Shown piece after piece: positions 32,047-35,541 of a stretch of 64,000 nucleotides of DNA. The notes below the pieces were generated by a model. It saw only the letters and a list, made by a program, of their open reading frames with translations. It was not told the origin of the DNA and made no database searches. Source of the stretch: Xanthomonas hortorum pv. pelargonii. GTDB lineage: Bacteria; Pseudomonadota; Gammaproteobacteria; Xanthomonadales; Xanthomonadaceae. Location of the stretch: contig NZ_CP098604.1 of NCBI RefSeq assembly GCF_024499015.1, forward strand, positions 682,001 through 746,000, written 5' to 3'. Numbering within the stretch: position 1 is the first letter of the stretch; every line of letters begins with the position of its first letter. The position numbers and the translations under genes were made by a program.

Positions 32047-33609
32047 ATGCGACTTGCGCGTTTGGCACGGCCGGCCATGGCCGACACTTCCTTTGGGACC
32101 ACCCGGTGCCTGTGCCTTGCGATCGGGTTATCGCTGCCGGGACTGGGGTTTGCGCAGGCGCAGACGGCGCCGGTCAATGCCGAACAGACCCAGCCCGAGC
32201 CGGCCAAGGCGCCAGCACCTGCCAAACCGGCAGCGCCCGCTGCATCCAAGGGTTACCCGCTCGAAGCGCAGGGTTGGGGTGCCAAACAGGGCGGCAATAT
32301 GTGGCAGGTGCGCTGGGTCGAAGACTGGTCGTATCTGAAAGATCCGTCCAAGCGCAAGAGCCCGTTCGATCCGCTCAAGTACATCCCGCTCAGCGAATCC
32401 GGCGATGTCTACGTGTCGCTCAGCAACGAGCTGCGCGTACGCAGCAACACCATCACCAATCCCGGCCTGATTCCGGGCAGCCATTCGCAACAGCAGTATC
32501 TGTTCCGTGCATTCTTCGGTGCCGACTTCCATGTGGGCGAGCACTTCCGTCTGTATACGGAACTGGCGCACGGCAGCCTGGATGGGCGCAACGAAGGCGC
32601 CAAGACCGGTACCCAGGAAAACAACGCGATCCTGCAGCAGGTGTTCTTTGACGTGAAGGGCAACATCGGCGGCGCCGACACCGGTCTGCGTGTGGGCCGT
32701 CAGGTGTTCGTCGACGGCCCGACCACATTGATGGCGTTGCGCGACAACACCGATATCTTCGTGACCTTCAACGGTGTGCGCGCCTGGGCGATCGGCGAAA
32801 AGACCCGTGTGGACGTGTTCGATTTCAACTTCAATCTGGATGGCACCGAAGGGTTGGGCGACGATCGCATCGACCGCTCGCGGCATTTCCGCGGCGTGGT
32901 TGGCGGGTATCGCCTGCCGACCGCCAAGCCGATGTATCTGGAACCGTTTTTCTACCAGTTCCGCAACGACAATCAGCTGTGGGGCCGCCAGACCGCCGAA
33001 GAAAACCGGAATTACTACGGCCTGCGCCTATGGGGCAATGTGGGCAAGCTGCGCACCGATTCGTTCGTGACCGTGCAGCGCGGCAGCTTCGGCGGACGCG
33101 ACCTGCGCGCGTACATGGCCAGCACCTCCAACGCCTGGACGTTGAGCGACAGCGGCTGGAAGCCACGTGTGGGGTTTCATAGCGAAATCGCCTCCGGTGG
33201 CGGCGGTACCTCCGGCACCGGCACCTTGCGCAACAACAATTTTCTCTACGGCAACACGATCTATTTCAGCTGGGCGACGTTCTTCGGCCCGGTCAACCTG
33301 GTAACTGCCGCGCCAACGCTGATCTTCTCGCCCACGCCCAAGCTCACCGTGAACCTGGAGTGGGAAACCTTGTGGCGCCAGACCACTAGCGATGCGATCT
33401 ACAACAACCAGGCGCGCGCCTACGCACGCACGCAGAGCACCGGCGAGCGGCGCATCGGCACCATGCCGCGCATCAACGCGACCTGGAACATCGACCCGAA
33501 CTGGTCGGTGACCTTCCGCGCCGAGCACCTGATCGCCGGCCCCGCGCTGACCAAGGCCGGTTACGGCGATTCGACCTTCGTGATGGGGTGGTTGAATTTC
33601 CGGTTCTGA
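32047..33609 (+). CDS. Alginate-export-type outer membrane porin
   Basis: 520 residues. The N-terminus has a late signal peptide (CLCLAIGLSLPGLGFAQAQ, cleavage near residue 39). A Pro/Ala-rich linker (PAKAPAPAKPAAPAASK) follows, then a beta-barrel with the alginate_exp hallmarks LSNELRVRSN, YTELAHGSLDGRN, LRVGRQVF and VDVFDFNFN. It ends in Phe (GWLNFRF), as barrels do. By family it would pass anionic or small organic compounds across the outer membrane. Substrate not determinable; no alginate genes are in the window. It lies between two inverted repeat arrays. Confidence 0.82.
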   Translation: MRLARLARPAMADTSFGTTRCLCLAIGLSLPGLGFAQAQTAPVNAEQTQPEPAKAPAPAKPAAPAASKGYPLEAQGWGAKQGGNMWQVRWVEDWSYLKDPSKRKSPFDPLKYIPLSESGDVYVSLSNELRVRSNTITNPGLIPGSHSQQQYLFRAFFGADFHVGEHFRLYTELAHGSLDGRNEGAKTGTQENNAILQQVFFDVKGNIGGADTGLRVGRQVFVDGPTTLMALRDNTDIFVTFNGVRAWAIGEKTRVDVFDFNFNLDGTEGLGDDRIDRSRHFRGVVGGYRLPTAKPMYLEPFFYQFRNDNQLWGRQTAEENRNYYGLRLWGNVGKLRTDSFVTVQRGSFGGRDLRAYMASTSNAWTLSDSGWKPRVGFHSEIASGGGGTSGTGTLRNNNFLYGNTIYFSWATFFGPVNLVTAAPTLIFSPTPKLTVNLEWETLWRQTTSDAIYNNQARAYARTQSTGERRIGTMPRINATWNIDPNWSVTFRAEHLIAGPALTKAGYGDSTFVMGWLNFRF

Positions 33610-33718
33610 GCAAGCGGTACGGTCCCGATCGTTGTTCTGAACTGATCTGCGCCCTGCAATCGGACGCGATGAATGTGTCGGTTGTTATAGCGGCTGATCT
33701 GCGGCTTGGCTGCAGGGT

Positions 33719-33820
33719 CCTTGCCCGCCCACCATCGCGGGACACGCCGCAAGTACGTCCGTGTAGGCTCTTACGCGGCATCCATGCCGCGTAAGGTCCC
33801 GCGACGGTGGGCGGGCAAGG
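33719..33820 (-). repeat. 102-bp palindromic repeat, family A, copy A4
   Basis: Reverse orientation, same length as the other A copies. It carries the CTACACGG variant that fully matches the IS110 guides (core on minus strand at 33765-33766). Confidence 0.85.
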
Positions 33821-33879
33821 ACCAGTCGAGTTGATCGGTGTGCGCAGCTTTCAATAAAACAGCCAGCAAACCTTCTGGT

Positions 33880-33936
33880 GCGGTGTCCTCGCCGCTTGCG
33901 GGACCGTGTGGCGGCATGGATGCCGCCACCGAGCCT
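33880..33936 (+). repeat. Left half of family B repeat B3, interrupted by IS110
   Basis: 57 nt of B up to GAGCCT. With the right half (35190-35235, 46 nt) it sums to exactly 103 nt, the length of intact B copies. Confidence 0.88.
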
Positions 33937-33970
33937 TATCTGTTCGGAATCTGGCAGTTTAGGTGTCGAG

Positions 33971-34110
33971 AGCCGGCGTGGGCCACCGTGAGAGCCTGGA
34001 TCTCAGCGATCGTCGTGTAGCTTGGTACCCACGCCGGATTCTCCCTTGATTCGCCCGAACAGTTGCCCGAGGTGACACTCGAAACGATAAGACTGGGCAA
34101 GCGAGGGAGC
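33971..34110 (+). ncRNA. IS110 bridge RNA (target-binding and donor-binding loops)
   Basis: IS110-group elements (IS621 the prototype) encode a bridge RNA between their left end and the transposase. Seen here, target loop: a 10-bp stem CCGGCGTGGG/CCCACGCCGG (33973-33982, 34028-34037) encloses AGAGCCT (33991-33997), a GATC/GATC mini-hairpin, and CGTGTAG (34014-34020). Donor loop: CTCCCT/AGGGAG (34041-34046, 34104-34109) and GCCC/GGGC enclose ACAGTTGC (34059-34066), a CGAG/CTCG hairpin, and GATAAG (34086-34091). ACAGTTGC equals the right end plus core. GATAAG is complementary to core plus left end (CTTATC). GAGCCT equals the left target. CGTGTAG pairs with the right target CTACA(T/C)G. Exact RNA ends are unknown. 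Confidence 0.82.
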
Positions 34111-34142
34111 TCTCGACATTTCTAGCCTAGCGGAGATTTCCC

Positions 34143-35065
34143 ATGAGCGGAATCGGGATCGATGTGTGCAAACACTCTCTTGACGTTGCGGTTTTTCGAG
34201 GCCAGACCCGTCAGTTCACCAACACCGCAGGCGGTCATCGGAAGCTTGTCGATTGGCTGAATACGCTGTCGGTGCGGCAGGTGGTGCTGGAGGCGACCGG
34301 GGGCTACGAGCTGGCAGCGCTGGATGCCTTGCATCACGCCGCATTGCCGGTGGCGCGCGTCAATGCGCAACGGGCACGCAACTTGGCCAACGGTTTGGGA
34401 CTGGCCAAGACCGACCGGCTGGACGCCGCCATGTTGGCCTGCATGGCCGAGAAGATGGAGCTCCATCAGTATGTTCCACTGGAACCATGGCAGCGCGATC
34501 TGGGCGAGCATGTGCGTGCCCGTCGGCAACTGGTGGATCTGTTGAAAACAGCAAGGCAGCAGCTGCAGCAGGTTGCGGAAAAGCGCTGCGCAAGCTGCTG
34601 CAGGGCAACGTGAACCAGCTTGTGCGCAGTGTGGCGCGGTTAGACAAACTGATCGCCGGGCAGCTGAAGACGCTGCTCACCGAGCAACCGCACCTGGCTG
34701 CGTTGAAGACGCTCAAAGGGGTCGGTCCGGTGCTGCTGGCCGTGCTGGCGTGCCGGTTACCAGAGCTTGGGACGCTCAGCGGAAAGCAGATATCCCGATT
34801 GGTTGGCGTTGCCCCGCTCTCGCGCGACAGCGGCGCGATGCGAGGTAAACGGGGGATTGGCGGAGGCCGAGCCGACATCCGACAGGCGCTGTATATGGCG
34901 GCCATGTCCTCAGCTCGGCACGAGCCACGTCTGCGCGATTTTTACAGAGCGCTGCGGGCACGCGGCAAGGAGGGCAAGGTCGCCCTTGTGGCGGTGATGC
35001 GCAAGATGCTGGTGATCCTCAATGCGCGCGTGCGCGATGAAAGAGCCGCCATGAAGCCCGCCTGA
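34143..35065 (+). pseudogene. IS110-family transposase, one-base frameshift
   Basis: The N-terminal DEDD RuvC-like domain is in one frame from 34143: MSGIGIDVCKHSLDVAV, VLEATGGYE, and KTDRLDA carry the acidic residues. Near residue 146 the frame shifts by -1 at an A4 run (34579-34582). The remainder continues in the other frame to 35065, with KALRKLLQGNVNQLVRSV, TLKGVGPVLLAV and the catalytic-serine domain APLSRDSGAMRGKRGIGGGR. One extra A would restore ...QQVAEKALRKLL... as a single ~308-residue protein. The first fragment ends at a TGA at 34611. I read it as an inactivating deletion; a sequencing error or rare slippage is possible. Both domains are otherwise intact. Confidence 0.85.
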
Positions 35066-35189
35066 GCGCATTTGACGGCCATGCGCAAACGCAAAAGCGT
35101 GCCGGCCAGCGGCCGGCACCTACCGATGGACGCACCCGAAGGAAACCGATCGAAGGCCGCGAATCGGGGTCCTGATCAACACAGTTGCT

Positions 35190-35235
35190 ACATGGACGTA
35201 CTTGCGGCGTGTCCCGCGAGCGGTGAGGGCACCGC
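35190..35235 (+). repeat. Right half of family B repeat B3
   Basis: Continues B from ACATGGACGTAC to the end arm ACCGC. It is followed by a 145-bp spacer nearly identical, inverted, to 29776-29920. Confidence 0.88.
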
Positions 35236-35380
35236 GCGCTCGACTAACCAGGCTTTTGACCTAAGCATTTGACTGCACCTACGACGACGCACCGAATCGA
35301 AAGATTGATTGGCTTTGAGTAGTTGGACAGTTCGGATAGATCGCTTGTAGAGCCGACGCTCTTCGGCTTGGCTGCAGGGC

Positions 35381-35482
35381 CCTCGCCCGCCCACCGTCGC
35401 GGGACACGCCGCAAGTACGTCCGTGTAGGCTCTTACGCGGCATCCATGCCGCGTAAGGTCCCGCGACGGTGGGCAGGCAAGG
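35381..35482 (-). repeat. 102-bp palindromic repeat, family A, copy A5
   Basis: Reverse orientation. CTACACGG variant (core 35427-35428 on the minus strand); two arm changes relative to A4. Confidence 0.84.
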
Positions 35483-35541
35483 GCCAGTCAAGATGGTCGG
35501 TGTGCAGGGTTTTCAATAAAACAGCAGGCAAACTTTCTGGT

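Follow-up and report, generated by a model that had tools for sequence, protein, structure and literature searches.

A predicted bridge RNA with guides that follow their targets in an IS110-group element of Xanthomonas hortorum, and its possible antisense partner sX15

This study deals with a 1.25-kb insertion sequence (IS) of the IS110 group, located at 33935-35189 of a 64,000-nucleotide stretch of the Xanthomonas hortorum pv. pelargonii chromosome (NZ_CP098604.1, 682,001 to 746,000), referred to here as the window. Bridge RNAs have been predicted for 85.7% of the IS110-group members, and IS621, as described in the same paper, combines two RNA loops and four guides with a CT core and a target in a palindrome resembling repetitive extragenic palindromic (REP) sequences (PMC11208160). 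For ISEc21, the target is determined by a seekRNA from the upstream noncoding region, with a processed form of 70-100 nucleotides (PMC11187229). The third described system, ISPpu9 of Pseudomonas putida, is an IS110-family element in REP sequences with a long structured 5' leader of the transposase gene (tnp) and two small RNAs (sRNAs), Ssr9 and Asr9. According to the work on ISPpu9, which was done before bridge RNAs were known and regards Asr9 as a regulator of translation, this RNA of about 180 nucleotides is complementary to the 244-nucleotide tnp leader and raises tnp translation; its promoter lies in the ribosome site and the first tnp codons, and its -10 box overlaps the ribosome site (PMC8450116). 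In the IS621 paper, ISPpu9 is cited as an example in which small RNAs are believed to influence the expression of the recombinase.

With high confidence, we read the element as an IS621-type insertion of the IS110 group, the left end of which would encode a bridge RNA with one loop for the target and one for the donor, accompanied by a possible antisense RNA, sX15. Guided by the bridge RNA, the recombinase would link the circular form of the element (right end-CT-left end) to the target GAGC-CT-ACAYGG, which lies in a dispersed palindromic repeat, and this joining would leave no duplication beyond the shared CT. The antisense sX15 would start between the bridge RNA and the tnp start and cover the bridge RNA. 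Transcription, RNA binding, the circular intermediate and strand exchange are taken over by analogy with IS621; the precise insertion, the predicted fold, the guides and the covariation of guides and targets among relatives can be read from the DNA itself. Like IS621, the element has a DEDD recombinase, a noncoding left end upstream of tnp, two loops, four guides, a CT core and a target in a REP-like palindrome. It differs from IS621 in its only remotely similar protein, in a GTCGAGAG/CTCTCGAC stem that closes the whole RNA, in a right target guide that pairs over 7-8 bases in many copies as opposed to 4 bases in IS621, and in an Rfam sRNA family on the opposite strand of its RNA. With ISEc21 it shares the IS110-type organisation and the predicted origin of the target-determining RNA in the upstream noncoding region, whereas the element and the target are different. 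The insertion in REP-like sequences and the long structured tnp leader are shared with ISPpu9, and the position of the candidate -10 box of sX15 fits that of the ISPpu9 antisense promoter.

The borders follow from a comparison with Xanthomonas sp. LMG 31884 (G023), where the orthologous site is vacant and the matches to window positions 32600-33936 and 35188-35510 adjoin each other, overlapping by two bases at the place of the CT core. The insertion is therefore precise, without any target duplication longer than the core dinucleotide, as is typical of the IS110 group, and the borders with a CT core at both junctions, which a preliminary description of the window had proposed from the sequence, are borne out. 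The noncoding end upstream of the transposase gene is longer than the downstream one (206 versus 122 bases), again as in the IS110 group, and the RNA lies upstream of tnp rather than in the right end downstream of it, the arrangement of the IS1111 group. The target motif GAGCCTMCAYGG, whose abundance the preliminary description did not mention, occurs at 200 sites in the genome compared to 3 sites for the reversed control pattern, which identifies the target as a dispersed repeat. Copies of a long palindromic repeat flank the element at 33721-33820 and 35371-35480, each of them with an unused target site (33759-33770 and 35421-35432). The positions of all features are compiled in Table 1.

The bridge RNA of this element is well supported as a prediction by several tests. 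RNAfold predicted for 33960-34120 two internal loops within a closing stem (33965-33972 with 34110-34117) at -72.6 kcal/mol, and none of 200 shuffled sequences reached this value (z -4.39). The two loops that had been recognised by eye were thus recovered, the target loop preceding the donor loop and both lying upstream of the transposase as in the IS621 type, while the extent given at the time, 33971-34110, is too short, as the closing stem makes the RNA longer. When 29 distinct relatives are aligned, standard pairs make up 98.0% of the paired cells, and 11 of the 32 pairs have changed on both sides; none of 500 shuffles was as high in the share of standard pairs or in both-side changes, and 34 of 500 were as high in further pair types. 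All four guides were found by script at the places previously assigned to them. Among 100,000 dinucleotide shuffles of 33964-34117, none contained all four guides and 346 contained two or more, with the single guides occurring in 9402, 1384, 153 and 1958 (wobble allowed for the right target guide). The right target guide CGTGTAG pairs with the target CTACATG with one G:T wobble. As in the IS621 type, the four guides complement target and donor, on both strands and to either side of the core, apart from the second core base in the left donor guide, which matches the core C only and continues with C instead of T; the proposed fit of the CT core to all guides is accordingly complete for three of them and half for the fourth.

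Table 1. Coordinates of the element, its predicted RNAs and its insertion site in the window.
Feature	Position	Strand	Basis
Left target GAGCCT, in palindromic chromosomal repeat	33931..33936	+	Sequence; motif count genome-wide
CT core, left junction	33935..33936	.	Sequence; two-base overlap at empty G023 site
Core plus left end CTTATC	33935-33940		Sequence
Left end, 206 bases, noncoding, upstream of transposase	33937..34142	+	Sequence, open reading frames (ORFs)
Rfam RF02234 (sX15) match, antisense to bridge RNA	33960..34117	-	Full length, 170 bits versus gathering score 55
Predicted bridge RNA, extent from fold	33962..34120	+	Fold z -4.39; 29-sequence alignment
Left target guide GAGCCT	33992..33997	+	Located by script; tracks left targets in relatives
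Right target guide CGTGTAG	34014..34020	+	Located by script; tracks right targets in relatives
Left donor guide ACAGTTGC, identical to right end	34059..34066	+	Sequence, script
Right donor guide GATAAG, complement of left end	34086..34091	+	Sequence, script; weak tracking in relatives
TAGGCT, candidate -10 box of antisense RNA	34124..34129	-	At -12 to -7 from sX15 5' end
IS110 transposase gene, frameshifted mid-gene; ORF 34143-34613, remainder in another frame to 35065	34143..35065	+	Domain searches
Right end, noncoding, terminates in ACAGTTG	35066..35187	+	Sequence, ORFs
Right end plus core ACAGTTGC	35181-35188		Sequence
CT core, right junction	35188..35189	.	Sequence; empty G023 site
Right target CTACATG	35188..35194	+	Sequence

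Further evidence comes from the relatives of the element, in which the guides tend to follow the targets, a test that had been set beforehand. Loci were pooled from a search of the genus, in which the IS110-group element was found in 24 of 35 genomes, from a scan with the profile A1, built from the transposases of intact relatives, from an Rfam sX15 search in 198 genomes of the family, and from 20 more stretches and three plasmid stretches. The A1 scan covered 84,980 species, each represented by a single genome, and from the best 80 of 291 relatives L034-L063 and L098 were used, while L064-L097 and L099-L113 were left out. Element ends were located by short family patterns. Of 98 loci examined, 92 gave guides, as the search patterns found no donor loop in 4 loci and no target loop in 2, and 80 remained after the removal of 12 places fetched twice; right targets were obtained for 58 of these 80, and of the two copies in L128 the first was used. 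On the left side, 244 of 342 positions match in 38 distinct combinations of guide and target, compared to a mean of 164.7 and a maximum of 199 in 20,000 shuffles. The right side, with wobbles counted half, reaches 170.5 of 192 in 24 combinations (shuffled mean 114.1, maximum 145 in 20,000 shuffles). For both sides together, the 34 Xanthomonadaceae combinations match at 467 of 578 positions versus 311.3 after shuffling, and none of 20,000 shuffles was as good. Since much of this signal lies between a few element groups, the test was repeated within groups, and in the GAGCCT group 16 of 20,000 shuffles were as good.

The tracking extends to single bases. In the clearest case, two elements in the genome of Stenotrophomonas maltophilia SJTL3 (L042 and L062) are 97.9% identical over 1257 aligned columns; L042 has a guide for CTACAGGG and sits at CTACAGGG, and L062 has a guide for CTACATGG and sits at CTACATGG. 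Within the first 270 columns, which contain the RNA, four columns differ between the two, and one of these is a guide base, which changes as the target does. Likewise, TAACACC replaces the TAACGCC of related copies in the guide as well as in the target of L119, L147 and L148. Other target classes with matching guides are GTGGATCT, GTGGCTCT, AACCCCT/CTCTCCCG, the attC-like type TAACGCCT/CTGAATTA and the repeats AAGTCGCT/CTCCTAC. All five copies in the genome of the window are inserted at GAGC-CT...CT-(A/C)CA(T/C)GG, and the GAGCCT/MCAYGG class accounts for 5/5 copies looked at in this genome, 5/5 in X. hortorum jj2001 and 9/9 of a sister element in Xanthomonas sp. LMG 31884. Copies with the same loops at unrelated targets were not seen among those examined in these three genomes. 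The interpretation as an IS110 element with a bridge RNA is thus supported by recombinase homology, precise insertion at a CT core, a conserved fold and the covariation of guides and targets.

A separate observation concerns IS110 relatives of the Xanthomonadaceae at sites resembling integron attC (L119-L121, L124, L125, L127, L147-L151), which have the guides TAACGCCT and CTGAATTA and the RNA in the left end. The site in L120 reads CTAACGC/CT/GAATTAAGCCGCGCCGCGAAGCGGCGTCGGCTTGAATGAATTGTTAGGC. The attC-targeting ISs named in the seekRNA paper are members of IS1111 (PMC11187229).

The opposite strand of the bridge RNA region gives a full-length match to RF02234, titled 'Xanthomonadaceae sRNA sX15' in Rfam, an annotation missed in the preliminary description. 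Matches to sX15 at E up to 0.001 were found in 35 of the 198 family genomes, 22 of them over the cut-off, and in none of 14 control genomes. In 21 of 30 loci fetched, an IS110 transposase gene, in some cases only its beginning, starts on the opposite strand at a distance of 26-44 bases beyond the RNA; 5 loci are cut off by a contig end and 4 are without a transposase. At 21 or more of the 30 loci, sX15 therefore lies on the reverse strand of a bridge RNA, with guide positions that vary by element.

An antisense RNA may start between the bridge RNA and the tnp start and cover the bridge RNA, which we regard as likely; the hints are a motif on the antisense strand and the layout of ISPpu9. TAnnnT is a -10 pattern of Xanthomonas, and on the antisense strand 34 of 36 distinct flanks have one that begins at -18 to -5, in 24 cases exactly at -12; the end of the pattern-found closing stem, rather than an Rfam match for each element, served as the start of sX15. 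In 30 other overlapping windows further upstream, only 0 or 1 of the 36 flanks contain the motif. The hexamers vary (TAGGCT, TATAGT, TATGCT, TACAGT, TAGAGT, TAGACT and others), and since the flanks are related, the 34 of 36 are not 36 independent events. On the sense strand, 23 of 38 distinct flanks, e.g., those of L116 and L140 and not that of the window element, have a TAnnnT that precedes the closing stem by 9-10 bases and may be a bridge RNA promoter inside the left end of those relatives. The antisense motif consequently weighs less, which lowers the odds of the antisense reading. A simple scan for the sigma-70 consensus, which covers the integrated state, found none on either strand of the window element, and inspection by eye revealed nothing convincing in the way of an IS621-like promoter across the junction of right end and left end.

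The alternative that survives best is that sX15 is not a real antisense RNA, because the strand in Rfam is wrong and the published sRNA is the bridge RNA itself. We consider this somewhat less probable than its opposite. It is favoured by the fact that the strand of sX15 is known here through Rfam only, by the lack of a sigma-70 consensus in the window element in the above scan, and by the sense motif in 23 of 38 flanks, which means that TAnnnT is not special to the antisense side. On the other hand, the minus-strand match begins 7 bases after TAGGCT, no plus-strand TAnnnT lies between the left end of the window element and the match, the antisense flanks preserve the motif against almost complete absence in the control windows, and ISPpu9 has an antisense layout according to S1 mapping and Northern blot (PMC8450116).

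If the strand in Rfam is right, sX15 may be the antisense partner of the bridge RNA, by analogy with Asr9 of ISPpu9. A more far-reaching proposal, which we regard as rather doubtful in its full extent, is that sX15 is a natural anti-bridge RNA, i.e., a family-wide antisense transcript of Xanthomonadaceae IS110 elements over all four guides, which would set the recombination frequency and the partner copy through base pairing with either the bridge RNA or the tnp leader, with orphans such as that on pXCV183 (L144), in which the RNA is preserved and the transposase almost entirely lost, acting in trans on other elements. This piece from X. euvesicatoria 85-10 (L144:2501-2756) consists of the RNA and about the first 16 tnp codons, is 85% identical to the window and scores 150.9 bits for sX15; we infer that it is the published sX15. 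The latter is presumably one of the sRNAs detected in this strain by RNA-seq. That study reported 24 sRNAs in X. euvesicatoria 85-10 (as cited in PMC5559785). The main text of the sX13 paper does not name sX15, and a review that treats bridge RNAs and IS110 mentions Xanthomonas in connection with TALENs only. The orphan bridge-RNA ends L144 and L145 occupy the same position, close to xopH and avrBs1, in X. euvesicatoria and X. hortorum plasmids.

Several observations weigh against the reading as a bridge RNA element. In the attC group alone, the tracking is not significant (2330 of 20,000 shuffles as good), the CCTAC-repeat group gives a borderline result (292 of 20,000), and there is no variation within the GTGGAT group. 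The donor guide tracks the left ends of relatives weakly, with 821 of 20,000 shuffles as good. The guide is disobeyed in L002 and L039, where a guide for CTACA meets the target CTCCA, and in L125 and L132, where the guide is TAACGCC and the target TAACACC. Left matches are low in L134, L135 and L143 (4 of 9) and in L042, L062, L130 and L137 (5). Finally, the strand of the bridge RNA is not decidable from guide covariation alone, and the wobble patterns are mixed, with left-side differences of 19 of the sense type versus 11 of the antisense type over nine positions and of 8 versus 9 over the inner seven.

It could be argued that the minus-strand sX15 is the functional RNA and that a sense bridge RNA does not exist, or that the minus strand does the guiding. 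Both strands are equally complementary to the targets, and the left-side wobbles over the inner seven positions do not favour the sense strand. The assignment of the Rfam family to the minus strand and the antisense TAnnnT in 34 of 36 flanks point in the same direction, as does the consensus fold, in which covariation contributes slightly more for the minus strand (-3.27 versus -3.05 for plus). Against this, the plus strand folds better both in the window (-72.6, z -4.39 versus -66.2, z -3.04) and in the consensus (-47.1 versus -44.4), the differences at the right target are mostly of the sense-wobble type (11 cases, versus 2 of the antisense type), and 23 of 38 flanks have the sense TAnnnT before the closing stem, so that we consider this reading very improbable. 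In IS621, the bridge RNA is reportedly on the tnp strand. Least probable of all is that the protein recognises the palindromic repeat and the noncoding stretch is a structured tnp mRNA leader with guide matches as by-products: several IS families are known to target REP sequences (PMC1525189), and the genome copies share one target class and nearly one guide, for which reason the window alone cannot separate protein from RNA targeting, but the guide letters of relatives follow the targets, down to a single base in the 97.9% identical pair, and the four guides never occurred together in the 100,000 shuffles.

The transposase gene of the bridge RNA element is broken, which had been overlooked in the preliminary description. 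The two pieces, searched apart, contain DEDD_Tnp_IS110 in the first and Transposase_20 in the second, and both IS110 domains are present in one whole protein in the relative L006. Searched against the PDB, the A1 profile matched the transposases of IS621 (8wt6, E 3.5e-40) and ISCro4 (9t56, E 4.9e-38), and no other PDB sequences at E up to 0.001. In all five copies of the genome (L001, L002, L003, L004 and L005; G000) the transposase is broken, and no intact copy was found in the genome. Four of the five have the same frameshift in an A run mid-gene, one of these with a further break, while the fifth is broken differently. A programmed frameshift was considered and rejected, because the five copies of X. 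hortorum jj2001 match the 307-aa protein unbroken, among the matches listed, and the 307-aa frame is also open in L007, L008 and L009 from three other Xanthomonas genomes; in view of these intact relatives, the frameshift in this genome reads as decay. The window copy is incapable of making a full transposase and was presumably mobilised either before its gene broke or by the enzyme of another copy. Since the same frameshift is shared at four different sites, the broken form seems to have spread or to have been converted, and a simple guess for the spread of frameshifted copies is a transposase acting in trans.

Beyond the chromosomes, partial matches were obtained in 19 of 72,556 plasmid records, none of them covering 80% of the query, and no match was found in 50,697 phage records. 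In the X. arboricola copy (L040 / L009), the left terminus is partly duplicated in tandem (TTATCTGTTCGGATT twice). Among the matches listed, multi-copy IS110 relatives with about 41-43% protein identity occur in Roseibium aggregatum (L073, L075, L077-L082, L085) and in a Binatia genome (L101, L104, L109, L112).

The element itself is one more IS110 member with a bridge RNA, a kind that is already known. In the literature searched, which omits most subscription papers, we found neither an identification of sX15 with the opposite strand of a bridge RNA, or any other link between sX15 and IS110, nor a natural series of reprogrammed guides in Xanthomonadaceae. Such a series is formed by the relatives described here, in which one RNA fold serves at least five target classes, with several one-base switches including the pair in a single genome, and it provides natural evidence for guide-directed targeting in elements that are only remotely related to IS621. 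In addition, the results connect an Rfam sRNA with a mobile element, opposite whose bridge RNA it lies, and antisense control of RNA-guided recombination becomes directly testable.
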